NCBI RefSeq assembly: GCF_025399835.1
Contig: NZ_JAODVR010000001.1
Coordinates: 2,232,001 to 2,296,000, forward strand
Direction of reading: 5' to 3'
From: Haloarchaeobius sp. HME9146
Lineage (GTDB): Archaea > Halobacteriota > Halobacteria > Halobacteriales > Natrialbaceae
Length of the DNA: 64,000 nt
Of the stretch, positions 11,383-62,003 are shown piece after piece. Both the position numbers and the translations under genes were made by a program. Every line of letters starts with the position of its first letter. Within the stretch, counting starts at the first letter, position 1. The notes beneath the pieces are model-generated. The model was not told where the DNA came from. It ran no database searches and saw only the letters and a list, made by a program, of their open reading frames with translations.

Positions 11383-11496
11383 CTCGTCTGGGTTCCGTCT
11401 CCGACTTTTCGGCACGACTCAGATGCTGAGTCGAGCGCTGAATCGGCGCTCGAAACCGTGCGCGGTTTTAGTGGGTCTCCCTCGCTACCGGTAGGT

Positions 11497-11985
11497 ATGC
11501 CACAGGACCACACCAGCACGACGCGGCGACGGCTGCTCGCCGGTGGCGCGGCGGCCGTCTCGTTCGGTCTGGCAGGCTGTCTCGGCGGCGATTCCCAGAT
11601 CGAACCGGAGCGCCCGAACGACGACGGTGAGGGCAGTCTCGGCGAGTTACGGTGGATACTCGAAGAGCAGTACGCGATGCAGGTGACGAGCATGACGTTC
11701 AGCGAGGGCCGGGTCGACCTGGAGTACAGTTCACAGGCGACCTCCCGCGCGGAGTCCCGCGAGGAGATCGGCGCGGTCATCTCGGCGTACGGCCTCATCG
11801 TGGCACACGACGGCCCCTCGGAGACGCTGCGGGCGACCATCGGTGACCGGTTCGCCGAGCAGGCGACCTCCTACCAGATCCAGGCATCGTGGGTGAAGCG
11901 GTGGCGAAACGGCGACATGTCGGACTCGCTGGTGGCACAGCGGGTGTTCAACACGCGGACCTTCCCGGAGTCCGCGACCCAGTAG
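11497..11985 (+). CDS. Tat-exported lipoprotein of unknown function
   Basis: This 162-aa protein starts with a twin-arginine signal (TTRRRLLAGGAAAVSFGLAGC) whose lipobox Cys28 would anchor it outside the membrane. A short acidic linker follows, then a ~120-residue alpha/beta domain (YAMQVTSMTFSEGRVDLEYS ... YQIQASWVKRWRNGDM). The ATG at 11497 places the RR motif at residues 10-12. No enzyme motif is visible. It lies between the prenyl synthase and gltX with gaps on both sides, so it is probably a separate transcript. Confidence 0.8.
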   Translation: MPQDHTSTTRRRLLAGGAAAVSFGLAGCLGGDSQIEPERPNDDGEGSLGELRWILEEQYAMQVTSMTFSEGRVDLEYSSQATSRAESREEIGAVISAYGLIVAHDGPSETLRATIGDRFAEQATSYQIQASWVKRWRNGDMSDSLVAQRVFNTRTFPESATQ

Positions 11986-12132: not shown

Positions 12133-12201
12133 ACGTAGGTTCGGCGGCGACGCGGCGAAACATCACGACTGTTTTGACGCCCCTCGGAGTACGTGGGGGT
12201 A

Positions 12202-13920
12202 ATGGACGATGCACTCCGCGAGCAGGTCGAAGAGGAGGCAGAGAAACACGCCCTGTTCAACGCCATCAAGCACGAGAGCGAGGCGAACGTCGGGGCGGTC
12301 ATGGGCCCCCTGATGGGCGACAACCCCGAGTTCCGCCAGCACGGCGACCAGATTCCCGGTATCGTCGGGCAGGTCTGTGGCCGGGTGAACGGCCTCGACC
12401 TCGAGGGCAAGCGAGAGCGACTGGGCGAGCTCTCGCCCGAGATGCTCGAGGAACTCGACGCGGAGGACGAGGAGGACGACCGCGTCCTCGGGGACCTTCC
12501 GAACGTCGACGAGTACGACCAGGTCCGCATGCGGTGTGCGCCGAACCCGAACGGCCCGTGGCACCTCGGGCACGCCCGGATGCCGGCCGTCATCGGGACG
12601 TACAAGGACCTCTACGACGGCTGGTTCTGCGTCCGATTCGACGACACTGACCCTGAGACGAAACGGCCCGACCTCGACGCCTACGAGGGTATCCTCGAGG
12701 ACGTGGAGTACCTCGGGTTCGAACCCGACGAGGTGTTCAAGGCGAGCGACCGCGTCGAGACCTACTACGACCACGCCCGCGAGCTCATCGAGATGGGCGG
12801 GGCGTACACCTGCTCCTGTTCCGGCGAGGACTTCTCCGAGCTGAAGAACAACGGCAAGCCGTGCCCGCACCGCGACAAGGACGCCGAGACGACCATGGCC
12901 GAGTTCGAGGACATGGTGGCGGGCGAGTACTCCTCGGGCGAGATGGTCCTGCGCGTGAAGACCGACATCGAGCACAAGAACCCGGCCCTGCGTGACTGGG
13001 TTGCCTTCCGGATGATCGACACGCCCCACCCCCGCGAGGTGGCCGAAGACTACCGCTGCTGGCCGATGCTCGACTTCCAGTCCGGCGTCGACGACCATCT
13101 GGTCGGTATCACCCACATCATCCGCGGTATCGACCTTCAGGACTCCGCGAAGCGCCAGCGCTTCCTCTACGACTACTTCGACTGGGAGTACCCCGAGGTC
13201 GTCCACTGGGGCCACGTCCAGGTCGACGCCTACGACATCAAGATGTCCACGTCGACCATCAAGCAGTACATCGACGAGGGCAAGCTCGACGGCTGGGACG
13301 ACCCGCGCGCCCCGACCATCAAGAGCCTGCGCCGGCGGGGCATCCGCGGCGACGCCATCGTCGAGTCGATGCTCGAACTCGGCACCTCCACGAGCGACGT
13401 GGACCTCGCGATGTCGACAGTGTACTCGAAGAACCGCGACCACATCGACGACACGGCCGACCGCCAGTTCCTCGTGCGTGAGGGGACCGAACTCGCCATC
13501 GTCGGCGGCGCGCCCGAGGCCGGCCACCCGCCGGTCCACCCGGACCACGAGGACCGCGGCGACCGCGACATCCCGGTCGGGGGCGCCGTCCTCCTCGAAC
13601 CCGACGACCTGCCCGAGCGCGAGGAGCGCATCTGGCTGAAGGGCCTGGGCTGCTTCCGCTTCACCCGCGACGCCCTGCAGTACACCGGCGACGACATCGA
13701 CGCGGTCCGCGAGGAGGGCGTCGACGTCATCCACTGGGTCCCCGCCGAGGACAACGTCCCGGTCGAGCTGTGGACCATGGACGGCGTCGTCTCCGGCCAC
13801 GCCGAACCCGGGTTCGCCGACCAGCCCGTCGACGCGATGGTGCAGTTCGAGCGCGTCGGCTTCGCCCGTGTCGACGCCCACGAGGAAGACGGCTCTGTCG
13901 CGTACTTCGCGCACAAGTAA
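12202..13920 (+). CDS. gltX: Glutamyl-tRNA synthetase (archaeal, non-discriminating type)
   Basis: This 572-aa class I synthetase has an N-terminal archaeal extension (~1-100). The HIGH-type motif PNPNGPWHLGHARMP follows (~res 115-129), then FDDTDPETKRPDLDAYEGI, and a KMSKS equivalent in the YDIKMSTSTI stretch (KMSTS). A C-terminal beta-barrel anticodon-binding region completes it. Archaea charge both tRNA-Glu and tRNA-Gln with it and then amidate Glu-tRNA-Gln. The ATG at 12202 is preferred to the GTG three codons upstream. Confidence 0.95.
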   Translation: MDDALREQVEEEAEKHALFNAIKHESEANVGAVMGPLMGDNPEFRQHGDQIPGIVGQVCGRVNGLDLEGKRERLGELSPEMLEELDAEDEEDDRVLGDLPNVDEYDQVRMRCAPNPNGPWHLGHARMPAVIGTYKDLYDGWFCVRFDDTDPETKRPDLDAYEGILEDVEYLGFEPDEVFKASDRVETYYDHARELIEMGGAYTCSCSGEDFSELKNNGKPCPHRDKDAETTMAEFEDMVAGEYSSGEMVLRVKTDIEHKNPALRDWVAFRMIDTPHPREVAEDYRCWPMLDFQSGVDDHLVGITHIIRGIDLQDSAKRQRFLYDYFDWEYPEVVHWGHVQVDAYDIKMSTSTIKQYIDEGKLDGWDDPRAPTIKSLRRRGIRGDAIVESMLELGTSTSDVDLAMSTVYSKNRDHIDDTADRQFLVREGTELAIVGGAPEAGHPPVHPDHEDRGDRDIPVGGAVLLEPDDLPEREERIWLKGLGCFRFTRDALQYTGDDIDAVREEGVDVIHWVPAEDNVPVELWTMDGVVSGHAEPGFADQPVDAMVQFERVGFARVDAHEEDGSVAYFAHK

Positions 13921-13929
13921 CGGACCTGC

Positions 13930-16311
13930 TCAACTCTCGCGGAACTCGAACCGCGCCCCGCCGGACTCGCTTTCCGTGATCGACACCGACCAGCCGTGGG
14001 CTTCGGCGACCGTCTGGACGATGGAGAGCCCGAAGCCGGTCCCGTCGTCTGCGGTGGTGAACCCGGTCTCGAACACGCCGTCCCGGTCGGATTCGGGGAT
14101 TCCGGGGCCGTCGTCGGCGACGTAGAAGCCCGCCTGCCCATCCAGCGACCCGACGCTGACGGCGACGGACTCGCCCCCGTGTTCCACACAATTTCGGAAC
14201 AGGTTCTCGAACAGTTCGAGCAGCCGCGAGGGGTCGCTGTCGACGGTACCGAGGCCGTCGCCGATGGTGAGGGTCGCGTTCCCCGTGTCGGTCGTGGCCC
14301 AGGCGCGGTCGACGACCGTCGGCATGTACACTGGTTGCGGGTCGTCGATGTCTCGGCCCTCGCGGGCGAGCGTGAGCACGTCGTCGATTATCTGCTCGAT
14401 GCGCCGGTGGGCCGTCCTGATGTGGTCGATGCTCTCCTGGGAGCCTGTCTCCTCGAGGAGGTCCAGGTGGCCGGACGCGACCATCAGGGGGTTGCGAAGG
14501 TCGTGGCTGACGATGCCGGCGAACTTGTCGAGGCGTTCGTTCTGCCGCCGGAGTTTGCGCTCGCGCTCCTTTCGCTCGGTCACGTCGGCGATGACGGCGA
14601 CCACGCCGTGTATCTCGCCGGCGGTGTCCGAGACGGGCGCGACCGAGACGCTGGCGTCGATGCGCGAGCCGTCGGCGCGCTGGAGCCGGCGTTCGATGCC
14701 CGTGAGCGCCTCACCGCCGAGGACGCGCTCGCGGTCGGCGAGAACCTGTTCCCCTTCGGCAGCCGGCACGATGGGTAATCGGTCGCCGATGACCTCGTCG
14801 GCCGCCCAGCCGAACGTCTCCTCGGCGGCCTCGTTCCACACCTCGACCGTGCCATCGCGGGACGTCCCGACGATGGCGAGCGGGGACGCCTCGACCAGCG
14901 TCTGGAGCCGGTCGGTAGTCTCGGCGAGGCTCTGTTCGACCGCTTTACGCTCGGAGATGTCCCGGATAACGCCGACCGCGCCGGACTCGCCGCGGTCGAG
15001 CGATATCGGGGCGATCCGGGTCTCGCACGGGAGCGCCTCGCCGTTCCGGGTCTCGACGGTGAGTTCGACGACGCCGCCGTCGGGGGTCGCGGTGGACGTA
15101 CTCGAGAGGGGCGATTCGCCCTCGGGGAGCACTGTCTCGAACGGTTCGCCGACGAGGTCGGCTGGCTCGTACCCCAGTAGCGACGCAAGCGGTTCGTTCA
15201 CCATCGTGAACCGGTCGTCGCTGTCGAGGACGTACACGCGGTCCCGAACCGACTCGAAGACCGTCTTGTACCGGGTGAGCTGGTGCTCGCGGCGGGTCCG
15301 GTCGGTCACGTCCCGGATGACGACGAGTTCGCCGATAGCGCGGCCGTGGTGGTCGGAGAAGGGCGAGGTCTGCAGTTCGAGGAATCGCCGGTCGCCGTCG
15401 ACGGTGACGGCGTGTTCGTACCACTCGTCCTCGCCGGTCTGCTCGATACGGTCCCATTTCGCGAACAGGTCCTGGATCGGTGTCCCGGTCAGGGAGTCAT
15501 CTCCAGTGGCGAGGAGTCGCCGGGCCGTCGGATTCGCGTCGCCGATGCAGCCGTCGCGGTCGAGCATCAGTATCCCATCGCCCATGTCCTCGACGATGGC
15601 CGTGTGGGCGGTCGGGACGGGGTCGATGAGCCGGAACAGGTAGAGCGAGAGCGCCATCGCGCTGCCGGAGAACACCCAGCCGAACAGGCTCACGTCGACG
15701 TTGCCGGCGAACCCGAGCGAGCGTACGACGACCCCTCCCCAGGGGACCAGCGCGGCGATGAGGATGGCGGTCGCCTGTGCCCGGTAGAGGTGTCGCGCCC
15801 GGAGGAACAGCTGGACGAACAGCAACGTCGCGGCGAACATCGTGACCGTGATGTAGACGAAGTGGCCGATGAACAGGGGACCGATCTCGACGTTGGCCGA
15901 ACTCAACGGGCCGACGGCGCTTTCGGCAGGAGCGGTGAAGACCAGCGGCTGGAGCCGTGGAACGAACATGGCGACGGTGAGGACGACCGGTTCGACCGCA
16001 AGCAACAACCTGGTCTGTCTGTTTGCCCACTGCTCGCGGCCGGTGTACTGCAGCGCGAAGTATATCCAGGCGGAGCCGGTGACCGCCATCGCGACCATCG
16101 CGATCCGCGTCCAGAAGAACTTGGCACCGGGTGTGACGAACGAGATGTCCAAAGCGTAGGCGATGCAGCCGACTCCGACCGCGACGAGGTACAGTGTGAG
16201 TGCCCTCGCACCGGGTTCCGACCGCTTCCACCAGGCCAGCACGGCCGCTATGGCCGCCACCCCAGCGGAGACGAACAGCGGAATCGTGTACGGCGTCAGT
16301 TCGAATCGCAT
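13930..16311 (-). CDS. 7TM multi-PAS sensor histidine kinase
   Basis: This 793-aa orphan kinase has an N-terminal seven-helix membrane sensor (~1-215). Three PAS domains follow: the first begins near IVEDMGDGILMLDRDG, the second near ESVRDRVYVLDSDDRF and the third near VEASPLAIVGTSRDG. The dimerisation helix has phospho-acceptor His in FAGIVSHDLRNPLMVA, and the HATPase has N box LFRNCVEHGG, G1 DDGPGIP and G2 GTGFGLSIV. The start at 16311 puts the first helix right after the N-terminus; a longer frame reaches 16368. No response regulator lies nearby, so its partner is unknown. Confidence 0.9.
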   Translation of the reverse strand: MRFELTPYTIPLFVSAGVAAIAAVLAWWKRSEPGARALTLYLVAVGVGCIAYALDISFVTPGAKFFWTRIAMVAMAVTGSAWIYFALQYTGREQWANRQTRLLLAVEPVVLTVAMFVPRLQPLVFTAPAESAVGPLSSANVEIGPLFIGHFVYITVTMFAATLLFVQLFLRARHLYRAQATAILIAALVPWGGVVVRSLGFAGNVDVSLFGWVFSGSAMALSLYLFRLIDPVPTAHTAIVEDMGDGILMLDRDGCIGDANPTARRLLATGDDSLTGTPIQDLFAKWDRIEQTGEDEWYEHAVTVDGDRRFLELQTSPFSDHHGRAIGELVVIRDVTDRTRREHQLTRYKTVFESVRDRVYVLDSDDRFTMVNEPLASLLGYEPADLVGEPFETVLPEGESPLSSTSTATPDGGVVELTVETRNGEALPCETRIAPISLDRGESGAVGVIRDISERKAVEQSLAETTDRLQTLVEASPLAIVGTSRDGTVEVWNEAAEETFGWAADEVIGDRLPIVPAAEGEQVLADRERVLGGEALTGIERRLQRADGSRIDASVSVAPVSDTAGEIHGVVAVIADVTERKERERKLRRQNERLDKFAGIVSHDLRNPLMVASGHLDLLEETGSQESIDHIRTAHRRIEQIIDDVLTLAREGRDIDDPQPVYMPTVVDRAWATTDTGNATLTIGDGLGTVDSDPSRLLELFENLFRNCVEHGGESVAVSVGSLDGQAGFYVADDGPGIPESDRDGVFETGFTTADDGTGFGLSIVQTVAEAHGWSVSITESESGGARFEFRES

Positions 16312-16503
16312 CTGCTGTCTGGCGAACACCCACCCATCCCCCAGCAGGTTCGCCGGTGCCCAACGCACCGCCTGCTTGACCGTTCAGGGGTCGTTGTGAC
16401 AGAGTGTGAATCAATCCTAATAGAGATATCGGCTACCGCAAAGGCGCGAACGGTGCGTTCCGTTGACGATTAGTGCCCGGTCACCGAGGCGGTCGCCGGG
16501 GCC

Positions 16504-18567
16504 CTACTCGTCGATGACGATGGTGTCGTGCGCCTTCCCGAGTAGCTCCGAGTGCTCGTGGGCGACCTCGAACACGTCCTCCAGGGTGAGCTGTCGGACG
16601 ATGTCGAGTTTCGACAGCTCCTCGGCGAACGTTTCGGGGTCGTCCTCCCAGAGTTCGGTGAGCTTCTCGACCGCCTCCCTGGCCTTCTCGAGTTTGTCCT
16701 TGTGCTCGGGACTGAGCGCGAGACGGCCCACGATGTCGACGAGGACGCCCAGGATTCCAGCGAGTATCTGCCCGATCGAACCGCTGTCGTTGTCGAACAG
16801 CCCGACCTCGAAGTCGACGACCACCTTGCGCCGGGCCGGGTCCGGACAGCGACAGCCTTCGTCGACCTCGGCGACGAGCACGTCGGGCTTGAGCTCGGTT
16901 CCGCGCATCATGTCACCGAGTTCCTCGTGACTTATCCACCAGCGTTCGGTGGTCTTCGCCGCCCCACAGGTCATCGTGATGGACACGCGACTCGCGGCGA
17001 GCATGTCGCCCCAGCCGCTCTCGTCGCCGTCGGGGTCGTAGCCGTCGGGCCGGGTCGCGTCCGCGTGGATGCTGAGACGTGCGAGCCACACCTTGACGTT
17101 GGTCTTCCGGCAGGGGACGCGCTCGCCGGCGGTGACCTGCTCGCCGGGGGCGAACTGCCGGGTCCTGTCGGTGAAGGCGGCGGGGGTACCCGGCCCTGCA
17201 CCGATACCGTACGCGATTCCCTGGCCGGGGGAGCCTCTGGGGTAGCGGGGTGCGGGGCCGAGGCCGGAATCGTCCGCGGGACGCCAACGTGGTCCGCCGG
17301 GGATGTAGCCGCCTTCAGTCGGGGCGGGCTCCCGCGGGTAGCGGTAGGTCTCACCGCGGTCCCGTGGCGATGGCGCGGGGTACCAGCGTGGCCCCTCCTG
17401 CGGGGTGCGCGGCGTCCGGGGCACGCGCCCGTACCGGCCACCGGGGCCGTACTCTGGCGGTTCAAACACGCCCGGGTCGCTCTCGGGGTAGTCGGTCCAC
17501 TCGGGTCTGTGGGGTGGCCGACGGCGCGGCGGCCGTCCCCGAGACGGGGGGCGACGGCCCCGGATGCCGTCACCGAACCGTGGTCCGCCGGGCTCGGACG
17601 GCTCGTCGGGGCCCTCGAACTCGTCGGGGGTTCTCGGGGAACCGACGACGCAGGAGGTCTCTGCCTCGTCCGGGCACGGGCCGAGGTCGGTCATCTCGAT
17701 GCGGAGGTCGACCTCGCCTATCTCGGAGCCCTGGAACACGAGTGGCCGGCGGACGAGCCGGGTCACGTCCGGCCGGAGGGCCGGACTGGCCGACCCGAAC
17801 CGGCGGGTGGACGGACTCACGGCAGTCGATTCCGACAACGAGAACGCGGCGAGTCCGGCACCGACGCCCGCAGGGACGGACAGGGAAGGGACGGAAGACC
17901 CGGTTCTGGCCGGGACCGCCGTGGACCGCCCCCTGCGTCTCAGGCGCGCTCCCCGGGGCGTCCGGTCGACGGCCCGGCGGACGAAGTCGAGGTCGGTCTC
18001 GCGGAACTGCGCCTCCAGCTCGCGGGCGACCCGGAGCACCGTCCGGCGGCTGACGGGACGGCCCCGTCGGCGGGGTCCCATCGCACCGACCAGCCCGACA
18101 AGCGTACCCTGCCGCCAGACGACCATGTGGGCGTCAGCCGGGGTCGACCCGGTGGCGCTGTCACTGACGGCCATTCCACCGTCTCCGATTTCGAGGAGCG
18201 TCACCCCGAGGTCGGCGGCTTCGCCACCCAGTTCCCGCAGGAACGCGACGAGGTCGCGGTCGGTTCGCGGGAGAACGATACCGGCGAGTGCGACGCGTTC
18301 GTCCGTACTCCAGACGTGCATCGCGCCGGCCCCGACCGGCGGGGACCGTGGCAGTAGCTGGGTACCGGCCGGGACCGGAATCGCGGCGGGCTCGTCGAAC
18401 CCGGGGAACTCGGCCGGGAGCAGGTCGAGCATGGCTCGTCCCGCGGTCGATTCGTGGCTCGACGCGGCCGGCGCGGCGGCCAGCAACGGTAGGAGCACCG
18501 TCGCCGACCCAGCACGCAAGAGGGCACGTCGAGTGAGATGGCCTCGTGGTGAGTCGGGACTGTTCAT
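16504..18567 (-). CDS. Tat-exported protein with Pro/Arg-rich central region
   Basis: This 687-aa protein is not recognised. It has a Tat signal (HLTRRALLRAGSATVLLPLL, residues ~10-29) and an N-terminal domain (~40-190). A region at ~190-310 contains PCPDEAETSC. A long disordered stretch (~310-450) is packed with Pro, Arg, Gly and Tyr (for example PPSRGRPPRRRPPHRPEW). The C-terminal domain (~460-687) has Cys pairs (CRCPDP), a hydrophobic segment (IGQILAGILGVLVDIVG) and a charged helix. The basic, proline-rich middle is unlike the acidic proteome around it. The start is chosen at the Tat signal. Confidence 0.75.
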   Translation of the reverse strand: MNSPDSPRGHLTRRALLRAGSATVLLPLLAAAPAASSHESTAGRAMLDLLPAEFPGFDEPAAIPVPAGTQLLPRSPPVGAGAMHVWSTDERVALAGIVLPRTDRDLVAFLRELGGEAADLGVTLLEIGDGGMAVSDSATGSTPADAHMVVWRQGTLVGLVGAMGPRRRGRPVSRRTVLRVARELEAQFRETDLDFVRRAVDRTPRGARLRRRGRSTAVPARTGSSVPSLSVPAGVGAGLAAFSLSESTAVSPSTRRFGSASPALRPDVTRLVRRPLVFQGSEIGEVDLRIEMTDLGPCPDEAETSCVVGSPRTPDEFEGPDEPSEPGGPRFGDGIRGRRPPSRGRPPRRRPPHRPEWTDYPESDPGVFEPPEYGPGGRYGRVPRTPRTPQEGPRWYPAPSPRDRGETYRYPREPAPTEGGYIPGGPRWRPADDSGLGPAPRYPRGSPGQGIAYGIGAGPGTPAAFTDRTRQFAPGEQVTAGERVPCRKTNVKVWLARLSIHADATRPDGYDPDGDESGWGDMLAASRVSITMTCGAAKTTERWWISHEELGDMMRGTELKPDVLVAEVDEGCRCPDPARRKVVVDFEVGLFDNDSGSIGQILAGILGVLVDIVGRLALSPEHKDKLEKAREAVEKLTELWEDDPETFAEELSKLDIVRQLTLEDVFEVAHEHSELLGKAHDTIVIDE

Positions 18568-18654
18568 GCTAGAAGCTAGTTCGCCAGTGGGCAAGAGCAA
18601 AGTCGCGGAATCGCCTGACTGTCCGGGTTTCGGACCTGGGAATCGGCCGACCAG

Positions 18655-19155
18655 TCAGAGCAAGACGGCGAGGAGGAACCCGACGAGCATCGAGGCCGTC
18701 AGGAACACCTGGACGACGATGCTGGCCAGGATGCCGACCGTCGTGTAGGCGGCGGCACGCGCCGCGTGGTTGCGGTCGCCTTTCTGGTAGAGTTCGACCG
18801 CGAACACGGTCCCCGCGACGCCGAGGATGATGCCGATGGGACCGACGACGAACAGGAGCACGAAGCCGACGATGCCCGCGAGGGCGGTGGTCGTCCAGGA
18901 GGCACCGCTGGCCCGGGTCGAGACCACGTCCGCGAGCTGGTCCGCGGCCACCGCGAACAGCCCGACGAGGACGAGCGTGGCGGCGGCGACGGTCCCCAGC
19001 CCGTCGCCGAAGTACCAGTAGCCCGCGACGGCGGCGACCGAGACCAGCGGGCCGGGCAAGGAGGGGACGGCGCTACCGATGACGCCGACGACGAGGAGGA
19101 CGATGGCGACGAGCAGGGCGACGTCGATGCCGCCGAGCGTGGACGCGATGACCAT
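18655..19155 (-). CDS. DUF456-type membrane protein
   Basis: This 166-aa very hydrophobic protein has about five membrane segments and the repeated Gly-rich patterns of DUF456 proteins (GVIGSAVPSLPGPLVSVAAV, FVVGPIGIILGVAGTVFAVE). Function is unknown in the family. The ATG at 19155 starts immediately before the first hydrophobic segment; the frame runs further upstream to 19302 in sequence without membrane character. It is divergently oriented to the ferredoxin gene, separated by 228 bases. Confidence 0.8.
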   Translation of the reverse strand: MVIASTLGGIDVALLVAIVLLVVGVIGSAVPSLPGPLVSVAAVAGYWYFGDGLGTVAAATLVLVGLFAVAADQLADVVSTRASGASWTTTALAGIVGFVLLFVVGPIGIILGVAGTVFAVELYQKGDRNHAARAAAYTTVGILASIVVQVFLTASMLVGFLLAVLL

Positions 19156-19346
19156 ACCACCACTACTCGGTTCCGTCCCATGGTTCTTTCCGCCGGTGTG
19201 CCCGGGTGTTCTGGCATGCCGAGAGAGCGAGCGACCATGATATGTCATGGGGTTGTACAGTACCCGGTACAGGTCGTCCAGAGAGAGAATACTACACTCC
19301 ACAACAGGGTGGAAAATGCAGGGTGGCGGTGAATTTCACGAACGTA

Positions 19347-19354
19347 GATTTAAG
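19347..19354 (+). promoter_or_regulatory. TATA box of the ferredoxin-ETF operon
   Basis: GATTTAAG lies 30-37 bases before the ATG at 19384, so the transcript should have a very short or no 5' leader. Confidence 0.55.
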
Positions 19355-19377
19355 ACAACACCGTCCCATGGCACTAG

Positions 19378-19713
<336 letters not shown>

Positions 19714-19719
19714 TCCAAC

Positions 19720-20580
19720 ATGAGCCTGAACATCGCTGTGATGACGAAGGGGGTGCCTGACTTCCGCGAGGGGCAAGTGTCGTTCGACGAGGACGGCCAC
19801 CTCGAACGGGGGAAGACACCCACTGTGATGAACCCGAACGACAAGTTCGCGCTCCGAGCGGCCCTGCAGACCAAGGTCCGCCACGGCGGGAACGTGACAC
19901 TGCTATCCATGGGCCCGCCAGGCTACGAGGGCATCCTCGAGGAGGGGATGCGCGACGTGTACGCCGACGACCTCGTCCTGGTGTCCGACCGCGAGTTCGC
20001 GGCCGCCGACACCTGGGCGACCTCCATCACGCTCGGGACCGCCATGGAGCACATGGACGAGATGCCGGACATCGTGTTCGCGGGCTTCAAGACCGCGGAC
20101 GGGGAGACGGGCCACACCGGCCCGCAGACCTGCTGGTGTCTGGACTGGCCCATCGTGACCCACGTGGTCTCGCTCGACATCGACGAGGAGGAAGGCAAGC
20201 TCCGCGCGAAGCGACTCGTCGAGGGCGACGTCGACGAGATAGAGACCGTCGAGGCCCCGATGCCGTGTTTCGTCGTGACCGATCCGGACTTCGAACCGAG
20301 CTACCGCCGCGCCGAACACCGGCTCCGACTGAAAGACCTGCGCGAGCAGACGACGAAACGCGCTGAGAACTTCAAGGAGCATCTGACGATGTGGAACCAC
20401 GAGGAGCTGAACCTCGACCCCGACTTCGTCGGGCTGGACGGTTCGCCGACCATCGTCTCCTCGGTCGACCCCATCCCGAAGGCCCCCGCGGAACGCGAGG
20501 CCACGATGGTGACACCGGAGGACGAGGAGGGTATGGAAGCGGTCATGGAAGAGCTGACGCCGTTCGTGGCGGGTGATTGA
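19720..20580 (+). CDS. etfB: Electron transfer flavoprotein subunit beta (FixA-like)
   Basis: This 286-aa protein fits EtfB/FixA length and motifs: MTKGVPDFREGQVSFDE at the N-terminus, NPNDKFALRAALQTK, ATSITLGTAMEHM, and GFKTADGETGHTGPQ contacting the flavin/AMP partner. The beta subunit pairs with EtfA (next gene, 20583). It follows the ferredoxin by 6 bases, and its stop is 2 bases before the EtfA start. It works in transfer of electrons from dehydrogenases to FixC and quinone. Confidence 0.93.
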   Translation: MSLNIAVMTKGVPDFREGQVSFDEDGHLERGKTPTVMNPNDKFALRAALQTKVRHGGNVTLLSMGPPGYEGILEEGMRDVYADDLVLVSDREFAAADTWATSITLGTAMEHMDEMPDIVFAGFKTADGETGHTGPQTCWCLDWPIVTHVVSLDIDEEEGKLRAKRLVEGDVDEIETVEAPMPCFVVTDPDFEPSYRRAEHRLRLKDLREQTTKRAENFKEHLTMWNHEELNLDPDFVGLDGSPTIVSSVDPIPKAPAEREATMVTPEDEEGMEAVMEELTPFVAGD

Positions 20581-33450: not shown

Positions 33451-35859
33451 GTGAACACGGAGACGACCCGCCGTGCCCTCCTGACCGCGGTCCTCGGGGC
33501 GGGCGTCGGCGGCATGACGCTCACGGAGGCCCGGAGCTACCTCGACCGGTTCGCGCCGGGGTCAGGGTCGGTGTGGGGGGCAGCGGGGTCCGGCGTCGAC
33601 GGGACCGTCGAGAGTCCCTACGGCCCTGCCGAAGTCACCTACGACGACGACCACGTCCCCCACGTCGAGGCCGACACCGAGCGGGCGGCGTACTTCGCGG
33701 TCGGCTACTGCCACGGCGCGGACCGGCTTTTCCAACTGGACCTCTACCGCAGACTGATGGAGGGTCGGCTCTCGGCGGTGTTCGGCGACCGGGCGGTCGA
33801 CTCGGACGTCTTCCACCGCCAGATGGACTTCGCGGCGGCGGCGGACGCCACCTGGGAGCGGACGAAGGAGACGGAGACGGGCGAGGTGGTCCAGGCGTAC
33901 GTCGACGGGGTGAACGCGGCTCGCGAGCAGGAGTCGAAACCGCTGGAGTACCGGCTGCTGGAGTACGAACCGGACGAGTGGACCCCACAGGCGTCGCTGC
34001 TCATCTCGAAGCAGATCTCCTGGGGACTCACGGGGACCTTCCGGACGCTTCGGAAGGCACTCGCCAGGGAGAAACTCGGTGCCGAGACCACCGAGGAGCT
34101 GTACCCGCGGCTCATGGGACACGACGACCCCATCATCCGTGGCGGTGAGCCACCGGAATCCACCCAGCACACGGATGCCGCGGTTCCCGAGGCGGGCATG
34201 GTCTCCTGGCTGGCCGAGTTCGAGACGCGACCGGGCATCGGCTCGAACTCCTGGGTGGTCTCCGGCGAGCAGACCGCCTCGGGCGACCCGATACTCGCCA
34301 ACGACCCGCACCTGAACCTGACCGTGCCGCCGGTGTGGTACGAACAGCACGTCGTCGGGCCGGACCCACTCGACGTCCGCGGGGTGTGCTTCCCGGGTGT
34401 CCCGTTCGTCATCATCGGCCAGAACCACGCCGGGGCGTGGGGCTTTACGAACACCGGTGCGGACGTCATCGACTTCTACAGTTACGAGACGACCCAAAAC
34501 GGCGGCTACCGGTACGGCGACGAGACGCGCGAGTTCGAGTCGCGGACCGAGACCGTCGAGGTTGCGGACGGCGAGGACCGCGAGGTGACGGTGAAACGGT
34601 CGGTCCACGGCGCGGTCCTCTCGCAGTTTCCCGATGGCGACGAACTGGCCGTCGCGGACGGACTCGGGGTCGCCTGGACCGGGCTCTCGGCGACCCGGAC
34701 CGTCGAGGCGGTCCGACGATTGAACTTCGCCGACGGCATGGCCGACGCGAGAGAAGCCATCCGGCTGTTCGACGAACCCACGCAGAACTTCGTCTACGCC
34801 GACCGCGACGGGAACACCTACTACTGGGTCACGGGCCAGATTCCCATCCGAACCACCGACGGCGAGGTCGTCCAGGGCACGCGCATCTTCGACGGCTCCG
34901 CGAGGGAGGGCGAGTGGGGCGACGGCTACACACCCTACGGCACCTCGTCGTGGGAGGGGTTCGTCCCCTTCGAGGAGAAGCCGGGTGTCGAGAACCCCGA
35001 CTACCTCGCGACCGCAAATCAACGCCTCACGAACGAGCCCGACCACTACCTCTCGGAGGGGTACGCCCCGCCGTTCCGCGGTGGGCGCATCTACGACCTG
35101 CTGGACGAGCGTGCCGAGAGCGACCAGCCGATGGACCCCGAGTTCTTGCGCGAGGTGCAACTGGACACGTACGACCCGCGGTGGGACCTGTTCAGGCCAA
35201 TCATCGAGGCTGGCAAGAGCAAGGACGGGAAAGACTACACGCGCCTCGGCTACGACCCTTACGAGGTGCTGGCGGACTGGGACGGCAAGATGACACCGGA
35301 TTCGGTCGGTGCACTGGTGTTCGAGCGCTGGCTGCGCGTCTTTCGGAGACGCTTCGGCGAGGAGCACCTGGCCGACGCCGGGCTCCCCGAAGACTTCCCG
35401 GAGCCGAACGACTGGGTACTCGGCACGCTCTCACTGAACGATTCGGACGGCCGGTGGTTCGACGGAGACGACGGATTACAGGTCGCCGCCGCGTTCGCGA
35501 TGCGACGGGCGACCGAGGAGATAATCGACGAGGGCTGGGACGACTACGGCGACTGGAACCGCGTCCAGTTCACCCATCCCTTCGACCAGGACTTCCTCAA
35601 CTACCAGAATCTGCGGACTGCAGGCTCGCCCGGCACGGTCCGGAACTTCCACAGCGAGGAGTCTACGGGTGCGAGCTGGCGGATGGTCTCCACCTTCGAC
35701 GGCGAGTCCAGGGCAGTCCTCCCCGGGGGGAACTCGGGCGACTACTTCTCGGACAGCTACGCCGACCAGTTGCGACTGTGGGCCGACGGCGAGTACAAAC
35801 CGATGCCCCGAACGACACCCGAGGGCACCGACCTGCGGTTCGAGGAGAGGTCACGATGA
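33451..35859 (+). CDS. Tat-exported penicillin acylase-family amidase (copy 1)
   Basis: This 802-aa N-terminal nucleophile hydrolase precursor has a Tat signal (TTRRALLTAVLGAGVGG). The alpha chain has VPHVEADTERAAYFAVGYCH and DRLFQLDLYRRLMEGRLS. The self-cleavage and nucleophile Ser265 lie in GIGSNSWVVSGEQTASG, followed by ANDPHLNL. The family cleaves penicillin G, acyl-homoserine lactones or other N-acyl compounds; the substrate here is unknown. GTG 33451 is supported by the promoter. It overlaps the next small membrane protein gene by 4 bases. Confidence 0.9.
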   Translation: MNTETTRRALLTAVLGAGVGGMTLTEARSYLDRFAPGSGSVWGAAGSGVDGTVESPYGPAEVTYDDDHVPHVEADTERAAYFAVGYCHGADRLFQLDLYRRLMEGRLSAVFGDRAVDSDVFHRQMDFAAAADATWERTKETETGEVVQAYVDGVNAAREQESKPLEYRLLEYEPDEWTPQASLLISKQISWGLTGTFRTLRKALAREKLGAETTEELYPRLMGHDDPIIRGGEPPESTQHTDAAVPEAGMVSWLAEFETRPGIGSNSWVVSGEQTASGDPILANDPHLNLTVPPVWYEQHVVGPDPLDVRGVCFPGVPFVIIGQNHAGAWGFTNTGADVIDFYSYETTQNGGYRYGDETREFESRTETVEVADGEDREVTVKRSVHGAVLSQFPDGDELAVADGLGVAWTGLSATRTVEAVRRLNFADGMADAREAIRLFDEPTQNFVYADRDGNTYYWVTGQIPIRTTDGEVVQGTRIFDGSAREGEWGDGYTPYGTSSWEGFVPFEEKPGVENPDYLATANQRLTNEPDHYLSEGYAPPFRGGRIYDLLDERAESDQPMDPEFLREVQLDTYDPRWDLFRPIIEAGKSKDGKDYTRLGYDPYEVLADWDGKMTPDSVGALVFERWLRVFRRRFGEEHLADAGLPEDFPEPNDWVLGTLSLNDSDGRWFDGDDGLQVAAAFAMRRATEEIIDEGWDDYGDWNRVQFTHPFDQDFLNYQNLRTAGSPGTVRNFHSEESTGASWRMVSTFDGESRAVLPGGNSGDYFSDSYADQLRLWADGEYKPMPRTTPEGTDLRFEERSR

Positions 35860-36194
35860 GCGGCCGATACTCGCTCGCTGCCCTGCGTGAGGACGACCGT
35901 CGGCGGCGACTCGCCACGGTGGCGGCCGTCGTCGTCGGGGTGAGTCTCACCTGGTTCCACTGGCTCGGGCTGCTCGTCGCCGGGGCGCTCGTGGCGCTTC
36001 CACAGCGCACGACCCGTCGGGGCGTCGGGGTCAGCGTCGCCTTCGGGGGCCTGGTCGTCCTCGGGTTCCTCGCGGAGCTGGGGCTCGACCAGGCGCTCGA
36101 CAGCTTTGCAGGGCTCGGCCCACTCGCCCTGCTACCGGTCGCACTCGGCATCGCCCTGCCCGTGTTCGGCGCGCTCGCGAGAGCTATCATCTGA
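35856..36194 (+). CDS. Small membrane protein coupled to the acylase
   Basis: This 112-aa protein has three to four hydrophobic segments (ATVAAVVVGVSLTWFHWLGL, VSVAFGGLVVLGFLAEL, LALLPVALGIALPVFGAL) after a charged N-terminus. It is not recognised. The ATG overlaps the acylase stop (ATGA), so it is co-translated with it and may anchor or support the exported enzyme; that is inference. Confidence 0.7.
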   Translation: MSGRYSLAALREDDRRRRLATVAAVVVGVSLTWFHWLGLLVAGALVALPQRTTRRGVGVSVAFGGLVVLGFLAELGLDQALDSFAGLGPLALLPVALGIALPVFGALARAII

Positions 36195-36269
36195 GCGGCA
36201 AATAGAGCCAAGTAGCCGTACTGAAATATCCTCACAACGACAGCTATCGAGGCTGTCCGTCCAGCTTCG

Positions 36270-37948
36270 ATGTTCCTCGCAAATCCATTCACGGCGATGT
36301 TGCTCGCCATCGCCACCGTGATGGTCACGCTCGCGGCGTACGCCCTCCGAGAGCGTGCGGTACCCGGGGCGCTCCCGTTCGCCGGGATGACGCTTGGAAT
36401 CGCCAGCTGGACGGGCATCCACGGACTCCGCATCGCGGCGACCGACCTGGAGACCTACGTCCTGCTGGCGAACGTCGAGTGGGTCGGAATCCTGCTCGTC
36501 ACGCCAGCGTGGTTGCTGTTCACCCTCGGGTACACGGGGCGACACGACCGTCTCTCCAGTCGGCTGGTCGGCCTGCTCGCGGTCCAGCCCCTCGTCACGC
36601 TCTTCCTCATCTTCACCAACGACCTCCACGGGTGGTTCCGGACCGTCGAATCGTTCCAGCCGGCGGGTCCTGGCCTGGCGACGTGGGAACTCGCCCACGG
36701 GCCCGCCTACTGGGCGACGGTCGGCTACGTCTACCTGGTGGTGCTCCTCGGTTCGGCCATCCTCCTTCGGCTCGCGGTCGGCGTCCCACAGCTCTACCGG
36801 GGCCGCACCAGTGCCGTGCTCGTCGGGGTGGCCGTGCCCTGGCTCGGAACGGTCTCGACGTTGTTCGACGTCCGTCTGGTCGACGGACTGAACACCGGGC
36901 CCATCGCGTTCGCCGTCTCGATGGTCGCGTTCAGCACGGCCCTGTTCGGTCACAGATTGTTCGCCGTCCTGCCCGTCTCGCCGACGGTCGCGGCCGACGC
37001 GGTCGTCGAGCGCATGGCCGCCGGCGTCATCGTCCTCGATTCCGAGGGACGCATCACCGAGACCAACCAGGCCGCAGACGAGGTGCTCGATGTCGCCGAC
37101 CCGGTCGGCAGCCGACTGACGGCCATCGACGAGGACCTGGCGACGGTCGCCGAGGCCGACGAGACGCGCAAGCTCCTCCTGGAGGACGACGGCGGACGCG
37201 AGCGCTACTTCACCGTCGAATCCGAGCCGATGTACCGCGCCGGCGACCTGCTCGTCGGCCGGCTGCTCACCCTCCACGACGTGACCGAGCGGGTGCTGCG
37301 CGAACAGCGGCTCAACGTGCTCAATCGAGTGCTCCGGCACAACGTCCGCCACGAGACGAACCTCATCATCGGCCACGGTGACCTCCTCGAACCGACCGTC
37401 TCCGACGCGGGCATCCCCCATCTCACCGCGTTGCTCGACGCGGCAGACCAGCTCGTCGACTGGTCCGACCGGGCCCGGTACGTCGAGCGCGCCCTCGACG
37501 ACGTTGAGGTCGAACGCTGCGATATCGACGTCAGCACGACCATCGGCCGTGCGGTCGAACGCCTCGAGGAGCGCTATCCCGACGCGTCCGTCTCCACCCC
37601 GACGAGCACGTCCGAGGCGGTCCTCGCGCACACGACACTCGAGTGGGCACTGTTCGAACTCGTCGAGAACGCGGTCGAACACAACGACGACCCGCATCCG
37701 TCGGTCGCGGTGGGTGTCGAATCAGCCGGCCAGTCGGTGACGATCACGGTCACGGACACCGGCCCAGGTATCCCCCCGACGAACTCCGGGTCCTCGAGAG
37801 CGGGGAGGAGACGCCGCTGGAACACGGTTCCGGGCTCGGGCTCTGGCTGGTCAACTGGACGATTCGCTCCGCCGGCGGCGACATCGAGTTCGCGGAGAAC
37901 GACCCGCAGGGGACCGTGGTTCGAATCACCCTCCCGCGGGCGACCTGA
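36270..37948 (+). pseudogene. 7TM-PAS histidine kinase with a frameshift in the ATPase domain
   Basis: This kinase has seven membrane helices (~1-225), a PAS domain (VVERMAAGVIVLDSEGRITE), H box NRVLRHNVRHETNLIIGHG and N box LFELVENAVEHNDD. Just after G1 (TDTGPGIPP) the frame breaks at a C run (37772-37777). The other frame then continues PDELRVLESGEETPLEHGSG and LGLWLVNWTIRSAGGDIEF to a stop at 37948. One extra C would restore a normal ~560-aa kinase. As written, the frame reads on as nonsense to 38798. Either a sequencing error, a slippery tract or a recent inactivation. Confidence 0.85.
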
Positions 37949-59375: not shown

Positions 59376-62003
59376 ATGGCAGACACTGACAGCCATGGAA
59401 GGGGGAGCGTGTTACGACGAGACCTGCTGCGAACCGGAACCGGTCTGGCCGCGGCCGCAGTCGCCAGCAAGACGACGCTGGCCTACGGTGGGGAGTCGAG
59501 CGACCCGACGACGGTCACCATCAGGCGCGACGACTACGGGGTCCCACACATCTACGCCCGGAACGCCGACGACCGAACACCCGTCTTCTTCGGGTTCGGG
59601 TACGCGGTCGCCACGGACCGCCTGTTCCAGCTCGAACTCTACCGGCGGTACTACCACGGGACGGTCGCCGAGGTGTTCGGTGAGGAGTGGGTCGCCTTCG
59701 ACGCTGCGGCCCGCCAGAACACCTTCACCGAGACGACGCTGCCCGAGCAACTGGAGAACATGGACCCGGACAACCGGGCCATCCTCCAGGCGTTCGCGTC
59801 GGGCATCAACCGTTACATCGAGTCGGTCCGCGAGGGAGACCGCGAGTTCCACAAGGGGTTCGTCGAGAACGGGTTCGAGCCCGAGCCGTTCACCGAGGAG
59901 GACGTCGCCGGGATGTACGTCGCCAGCATGGCCTTCTTCAGCGGCTTCCAGCTGGAGACCCTCGGCGCGCTGGTCGTCGACATCCTCGAGGGGCAGGTCG
60001 GCGAGGAGGGCGCGATGGAACTGTTCCACGACCTCAACTGGGGGAACGACCCCGGGTCGCCGACCTCCAGCGTCCAGCCCGATGACGCCTACGTGCCGCC
60101 GTACACCCCGGCAGGCGACGACGCCGGTGCTGGTGCGACAGCCGCAGAAGGCACCGAGCGCGGCGTGACGGGCGAACAGAACCAGCCGACCAACCGGGTG
60201 ACAGGCGGGGACGCTCGCGTTCCAACCGACGCGCGAGGCGTCCACGAGGCAGAGATGGAGCGAGTCCGGACCCTCGCCCGAGGCCTCGACGACCTCGGCC
60301 TACCCATCAAGTACGGCAGCAATGCGCTCGCCGTCCAGGGCGACGCGACCGACAGCGGCGACGCGATACTCATGGGTGGCCCGCAGATGGGCTTCTCGAC
60401 GCCCTCGGTGATGTACGAGGCCGGACTTCACGGCCCGGACTTCGACGTCGCTGGCATCACGGTCGCCGGGTATCCATTCATCATGTTCGGACGGAACCGC
60501 AACGGGGCGTTCACCTCGACCGCGGGCATCGACAACTGCATCCAGACGTTCGTCGAGTCCATCGAGACCAACGACGACGGCCCCGACACCTACGAGTTCC
60601 GCGGCGAGGAGCGCGAGGTGTACGCCGAGGAACAGACGATTCCGGTCGCGGGCGGCGAGGACCAGACGGTGATGCTTCGGCGGACTCACCACGGCGTCGT
60701 CACCCAGTGGAATCCCGACGCGGGCGAGGCTATCGCCCAGACGAAGTCCTACGCCGGTCGAGACATGAACTCCTGGGCCGCGTTCTTCGAGTCGCAGTTC
60801 GCCGAGAGCGTCGAGGAGTACGGCGAGGCGGCCCGCCAGTGCGACTACGCGCTGAACTTCATGTGGGCCGGCGATGACGGCGACATCGGCTACTTCCACC
60901 TCGGTCGCTACCCCGACGCCGAGTCGGCCCCCTGGGACACCCGGCTCCCTGCTGACGGCACGCAGTACGAACTCACCGAGGAGGACTACCTGCGGGCCGC
61001 AGACGGGGACGTCCCCTACAGCATCAACCCGCCGCGGGGCTACTCGGCGCAGTGGAACAACAAGCCTGCGCCGGGCTGGAACAACGGCGACCTCAGCTAC
61101 TCGTGGGGGACAGACCACCGGGTGCAACGCATCATCAACCTCGTCGAACACGAACTCGACACCGCCGGCTCGGTCGGCTACGACGACCTCAAGGACGTCG
61201 TCTACGACATCTCGTTCATCGACCTCCGGAGCATCCGGTACCGCGACGCACTGCTCGACGCCCTCGCGGACGCAGAACTCACGGAAACCGAGCAGGCTGC
61301 CCGCGACGCCGTCGCCGACTGGGACCACTACCGGCAGGGCGCTGGCGAGGACTTCACGGGTGAGTATCCGGTCGGCTACACCGTCTGGAACGCCACGTTC
61401 CCGAAGGCGCTCGAGAACGTCTTCGCCGATGCGTTCGGGCCGGCGTACGGCCCCGCCTCGTTCTTCCTCACCTACCGGTACGGTCGCGGGACGCTGATGC
61501 GGGTCCTCAACCCATCCGAGACCGAGATGGACCTCGCAGCCGACTACGCGGGCGACGTGAAACAGGCCTTCGTCGATGCGTTCCGCGCGGCCTGTGCTGA
61601 ACTCGAAGCGGAGTACGGCGAAGACGTCGAGTCGTGGCGCACGTCGGCCCGAATCGACGAACTCGACAACCTGGCGCTGTTCGGCATGCCCATCGGGGTC
61701 GGCGATGCCGGCGACATGCCCTGGGTCAACCGCGGGACGGAGAACCACTTCGTCCGCCTCGGCGACGACCCCGTCGCGGAGAACGTCCTGCCACCGGGGA
61801 ACTCCGGCTACGTCGCGCCCGACGGGACCGAAAGCGACCACTACGACGACCAGCTGGACATGTTCGTCGACTTCGAGTACAAGCAGTTGCTGTTCGAGCA
61901 CCGTGACGTCCACCGGGAGACGTCGACCTCCAGGGTCCTCCAGCTCGGTGAGCGGGGCAACGGTGGGCCGAACGACCGGTCGAAGGAGCGCGGCGGGAGA
62001 TAG
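59376..62003 (+). CDS. Tat-exported penicillin acylase-family amidase (copy 2)
   Basis: This 875-aa N-terminal nucleophile hydrolase precursor has a Tat signal (VLRRDLLRTGTGLAAAAVAS). Alpha-chain motifs are YGVPHIYARNADDRTPVFFG and DRLFQLELYRRYYHGTVAEV. A disordered linker (~230-285) precedes the cleavage and nucleophile Ser315 in IKYGSNALAVQGDATDSGD, followed by GGPQMGF. The N-terminal SNxLAV differs from copy 1 (SNSWVV). The linker likely is the pro-peptide. The C-terminus is Arg/Gly-rich. Substrate unknown. Confidence 0.9.
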   Translation: MADTDSHGRGSVLRRDLLRTGTGLAAAAVASKTTLAYGGESSDPTTVTIRRDDYGVPHIYARNADDRTPVFFGFGYAVATDRLFQLELYRRYYHGTVAEVFGEEWVAFDAAARQNTFTETTLPEQLENMDPDNRAILQAFASGINRYIESVREGDREFHKGFVENGFEPEPFTEEDVAGMYVASMAFFSGFQLETLGALVVDILEGQVGEEGAMELFHDLNWGNDPGSPTSSVQPDDAYVPPYTPAGDDAGAGATAAEGTERGVTGEQNQPTNRVTGGDARVPTDARGVHEAEMERVRTLARGLDDLGLPIKYGSNALAVQGDATDSGDAILMGGPQMGFSTPSVMYEAGLHGPDFDVAGITVAGYPFIMFGRNRNGAFTSTAGIDNCIQTFVESIETNDDGPDTYEFRGEEREVYAEEQTIPVAGGEDQTVMLRRTHHGVVTQWNPDAGEAIAQTKSYAGRDMNSWAAFFESQFAESVEEYGEAARQCDYALNFMWAGDDGDIGYFHLGRYPDAESAPWDTRLPADGTQYELTEEDYLRAADGDVPYSINPPRGYSAQWNNKPAPGWNNGDLSYSWGTDHRVQRIINLVEHELDTAGSVGYDDLKDVVYDISFIDLRSIRYRDALLDALADAELTETEQAARDAVADWDHYRQGAGEDFTGEYPVGYTVWNATFPKALENVFADAFGPAYGPASFFLTYRYGRGTLMRVLNPSETEMDLAADYAGDVKQAFVDAFRAACAELEAEYGEDVESWRTSARIDELDNLALFGMPIGVGDAGDMPWVNRGTENHFVRLGDDPVAENVLPPGNSGYVAPDGTESDHYDDQLDMFVDFEYKQLLFEHRDVHRETSTSRVLQLGERGNGGPNDRSKERGGR

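Follow-up and report, generated by a model that had tools for sequence, protein, structure and literature searches.

A predicted Tat-exported orphan protein with an unusual Pro/Arg/Gly/Tyr-rich linker in a variable genomic slot of Haloarchaeobius sp. HME9146

The window analysed here is a stretch of 64,000 nucleotides of the Haloarchaeobius sp. HME9146 genome. It includes a minus-strand open reading frame (ORF) of 687 codons which, as proposed in the initial annotation, is real: it is free of stops and begins with ATG, and a TTG codon at 18600 provides an alternative start that would add 11 residues. The layout of this orphan gene and of its surroundings is given in Table 1. Elsewhere in the window, the penicillin amidase family is represented by two Tat-type proteins, encoded 24 kb apart at 33451-35859 (+) and 59409-62003 (+) (Pfam PF01804, E values of 4e-188 and 1e-119); both are candidate acylases that may work outside the cell. 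A 521-residue protein encoded at 36132-37697 (-) contains only two Lys residues and has no Pfam match.

Table 1. Position and layout of the orphan gene, its product and the surrounding slot (window coordinates)
Feature	Coordinates	Strand	Basis or remark
Glutamyl-tRNA synthetase gene (gltX), conserved left flank	12193..13920	+	
Inserted segment, missing from five congeneric species	13921..18654	.	gltX directly adjoins the DUF456 gene in those species
7TM (HisKA_7TM)-PAS-histidine kinase	13930..16311	-	same inserted segment; ORF reaches GTG 16368
Orphan gene, 687 aa	16504..18567	-	ATG at 18567, stop TAG 16504-16506; stop-free ORF, codon signal
C-terminal domain, residues 481-687: Cys486/534/572/574, hydrophobic stretch 601-619, charged helical tail	16507..17127	-	no family match
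P/R/G/Y-rich low-complexity linker, residues 318-480; Arg-aromatic pairs at 378, 394, 409, 427, 441	17128..17616	-	
Acidic bridge carrying Cys298/Cys306, residues 281-329	17581..17727	-	composition
Arg/Ser/Ala-rich basic stretch, probably non-globular, residues 205-280	17728..17955	-	within the most basic part, 141-281
N-terminal domain, residues 41-204, Cys-free	17956..18447	-	beta-beta-alpha-beta-beta-alpha order predicted at very low confidence; no family or PDB match
Putative Tat-type signal peptide, residues ~1-35 (TRRALLR, then hydrophobic stretch)	18463..18567	-	sequence by eye; hydropathy peak at residue 16
DUF456 membrane protein gene, conserved right flank	18655..19188	-	

The left flank is a gene which we take to be gltX. 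In five of five congeners it is followed by the DUF456 gene with no gene in the gap; the window has about 4.7 kb at this point, occupied by the histidine kinase and the orphan. Identity to the window in these two flanking genes is 95% and 85% in the closest congener (G001). A start of the kinase at ATG 16311 is more likely than one at GTG 16368. Haloarcula vallismortis and a genome resembling it (G119) have relatives of the kinase (approximately 46-50% identity) in this slot, convergent with gltX; there the neighbouring gene encodes an alpha/beta hydrolase and the orphan is absent. Haloarcula counterparts of the slot kinase lie at L122:8751-11192 and L033:1483-3930. Either the kinase is old in this slot and has repeatedly been lost, or it arrived separately or moved between genera; the orphan is extra in both cases. 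In another member of the family (L030:9056-9727, -) the slot is taken up by a gene for a different protein, acidic and exported, that ends in Asp/Glu/Gly/Asn repeats, and the place is therefore variable. No flanking repeats or mobile element were seen around the insert among the direct repeats, and Rfam gave no match in 13000-20000. To the left, the gene of a conserved Tat-type lipoprotein without a Pfam family (RRRLLAGGAAAVSFGLAGC; 11458-11985, +) separates gltX from a polyprenyl synthase gene in the congeners searched.

On a codon score trained with ten neighbouring genes, residues 470-687 of the orphan have a signal typical of known genes (0.52-0.80 bits per codon), residues 37-190 a weaker one (0.21 bits per codon) and residues 330-470 an atypical one (-0.42 bits per codon); the signal is weak or atypical in residues 190-280 too. 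The annotated frame is the best of the six, over the whole ORF and also within 330-470. An antisense ORF of 601 residues has no Pfam match and a poorer codon score and does not look coding; the other frames at the locus likewise lack a Pfam match and score worse than the annotated frame. The orphan is taken as a real gene with a compositionally odd middle.

The N-terminus (LTRRALLRAG and SATVLLPLLAAAPAAS) fits a Tat signal when read by eye, with TRRALLR at residues 12-18, a hydrophobic peak at 16-34 and an Ala/Ser-rich end, which agrees with the Tat substrate proposed in the initial annotation and suggests that the protein is exported via Tat. A lipobox Cys is absent from the N-terminus, the first Cys being residue 298, and the protein is thus not placed among the haloarchaeal lipoproteins. 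An envelope-anchor signal was not found in the protein, which contains just one N-glycosylation sequon.

The centre of the protein, which had been described as basic and dominated by Pro, Arg, Gly and Tyr, is indeed an outlier in composition: these four residues reach 68% of a 100-residue window, compared with a maximum of 39% among the remaining 61 of the 62 genes called. Its basicity is less pronounced than had been claimed. Residues 330-470 contain 25 Arg, no Lys and about 15 Asp/Glu, a net charge of +10 over 141 residues, so that the linker is only mildly basic, and the most basic 141-residue window of the protein is 141-281 (+17). The peak net charge per 100 residues is +15 for the orphan, +12 for ribosomal protein L21e and at most +8 for the remaining genes of the window. 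Residues 1-487 are free of Lys, which is matched by one in 5000 shuffles of the protein's own composition; this run is suggestive only, because other genes of the window go without Lys for as many as 443 residues. Nine of the ten Tyr residues fall in 360-453. The linker has five Arg-aromatic pairs against 2.1 expected, which barely exceeds chance (p = 0.04). It is called disordered by the charge-hydropathy test.

No relatives of the orphan have been found. Pfam, NCBIfam and PDB sequences gave no match to the whole protein or to either end separately, in agreement with the initial annotation, which recognised no family, and PHROGs gave none to the whole protein. Searches of plasmid, phage and viral-contig collections yielded no relatives, and the gene is accordingly not classed as viral or plasmid-borne. 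It is single-copy in its own genome. It was not found in the five other Haloarchaeobius genomes, in 100 (C-domain query) or 124 (N-domain query) genomes of the same family, in 146 genomes of the family that includes Haloarcula, or in 194 genomes of the order, all of these being samples searched with single-sequence queries, which miss distant homologues. A class-wide search with the N-domain returned chance-level matches only, as did the linker within the genus apart from its match to itself, and a pattern scan of the genomes of 84,980 species, which detects close relatives only, returned none. Those weak haloarchaeal matches to the N- and C-domains that were opened proved to be antisense frames or unrelated proteins (for example, a universal-stress-type protein, a trp-gene region and a KaiC-like region) and were rejected as chance.

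Structure prediction, which the initial annotation had proposed for each end, was run with AlphaFold from the single sequence; it reached a pLDDT of about 35 for the whole protein and for residues 42-204, gave neither end a confident fold and is uninformative because homologues are lacking. The cysteines lie at positions 298, 306, 486, 534, 572 and 574. The two folded flanking domains with Cys pairs described in the initial annotation are consequently not upheld, the N-terminal domain having no Cys and the predictions this low pLDDT. Residues 490-600 were also considered as a C2-like calcium-binding region, which could not be supported. The protein is best described as a putative species- or clade-restricted exported ORFan in a variable slot.

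Surface and secreted proteins are often restricted to a lineage and built from modules with low-complexity sequence. The Tat-type start, the outlying and predicted disordered linker, the distribution of Tyr and Lys, the absence from relatives and the slot all count in favour of such a protein here. The reading we favour, though weakly, places the orphan, exported by Tat and restricted to its lineage, at the surface or in the matrix, with an Arg/aromatic linker that tethers the C-terminal domain to the acidic envelope. The protein would fold and then be exported by Tat. Residues 205-480 would form a flexible, Lys-free tether bearing Arg and Tyr/Trp. The contacts by which it may stick, in molar salt, to the acidic glycoprotein envelope would be chiefly Arg-aromatic and hydrophobic. 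The C-terminal domain with its cysteines, thereby kept at the surface or within the matrix, would carry out the species-specific work. We infer both the envelope binding and the division of labour between the parts of the protein. Against this reading stand the mild basicity of the linker, its near-chance number of Arg-aromatic pairs, the failure to find an envelope-anchor signal, the single sequon and the weak codon signal of residues 190-280 and 330-470. The function of the orphan is guesswork because it has neither a homologue nor a confident fold, and what is established is no more than a predicted exported orphan with an unusual linker in one genome. The feature singled out in the initial annotation is confirmed as real and unusual, and its interpretation is partly supported: the Tat-type signal, the lack of a recognised family and the unusual centre, called disordered, are borne out, but not a strongly basic P/R/G/Y-rich stretch. 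That a basic disordered segment could bind S-layer, nucleic acid or polysaccharide outside an acidic cell surface is a suggestion of that annotation.

The main rival to surface tethering is a secreted, halocin-like antagonism precursor, which we consider unlikely. Extracellular serine proteases would cut the Arg-rich disordered middle and free a terminal fragment harmful to neighbouring haloarchaea; the likeliest such fragment is the C-terminal part, which contains the hydrophobic helix. Haloarchaea indeed already release inhibitory fragments from secreted precursors in this way, HalH4 and HalC8 freeing a C-terminal fragment and HFX_0892 an N-terminal one (PMC12893001). The Tat-type signal, a protease-accessible middle with multi-Arg runs, the 19-residue hydrophobic peak at 601-619 followed by charged helices, and the extreme lineage restriction are all compatible with such a precursor. 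However, neither the whole protein nor its domains match any Pfam or NCBIfam model, halocin ones included, at E values up to 10, a comparison by library models that perhaps do not cover every halocin; moreover, no immunity gene is recognised beside the orphan, which is also much larger than HFX_0892 (PMC12893001). The adjacent kinase raises a further alternative, that the orphan is the extracellular sensor partner of this 7TM protein and that the two were acquired together as a signalling pair. They share the inserted segment and the strand, but the gap of about 190 bp between them contains AT-rich sequence where a separate promoter could lie. The Haloarcula kinase in the same slot adjoins the hydrolase gene and lacks the orphan, and none of the three best full-length relatives of the kinase has a gene like the orphan beside it. 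Because the two genes are separable in other genomes, this pairing is very improbable.

A further rival, with a probability as low as that of the secreted precursor, is that the gene is young or decaying and has little function. High-GC DNA would stay open since stops are rare, and only the C-terminal part would be normally constrained; P/R/G-rich sequence can also come from weakly constrained high-GC DNA. Such an origin would account for a near-normal codon signal only from residue 470, with weak signal in 190-280 and 330-470, and would fit the failure to find the orphan in any relative searched. Shuffles of the same bases also give stop-free runs of up to 519 residues, but this is the maximum of 500 shuffles, each of which falls short of the 687 codons observed. 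The synonymous bias of residues 330-470 beats a composition-matched null (20/1000), being better than 98% of it, and the coherent Tat-type start and the clustering of Tyr and Trp codons in the linker also argue against decay.

The haloarchaeal systems HalH4, HalC8 and HFX_0892/HmHapP are secreted, as is predicted of the orphan, and share its modular build. Proteolytic activation is a property of those proteins, and the orphan differs from them in its lack of a family-library match, its larger size and its P/R/G/Y-rich middle. With Tat-exported haloarchaeal surface proteins that contain low-complexity linkers it shares a Tat-type signal and globular-looking ends joined by a low-complexity stretch. 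The usual linkers of these surface proteins are acidic and rich in Thr, Ser, Asp and Glu, whereas that of the orphan is Lys-free and rich in Pro, Arg, Gly and Tyr. Arg and aromatic residues spread across a Pro/Gly-rich background also resemble the phase-separating Arg/Tyr-rich regions of eukaryotic RNA-binding proteins; this likeness is compositional only, and the orphan is predicted to be exported.

Exported haloarchaeal proteins are normally acidic, which is thought to aid solubility in salt. It is conceivable, if quite unlikely, that the orphan represents a family of exported archaeal proteins in which a Lys-free, disordered Arg/Tyr/Pro/Gly segment serves as a salt-tolerant extracellular adhesive or condensing module, or as the linker through which a new type of halocin is activated. 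An exported 160-residue stretch of this composition, within a protein whose first 487 residues contain no Lys, would test how sticky disordered segments behave in molar salt. If the orphan is a true secreted antagonist, it would add to the recently described protease-activated precursors.
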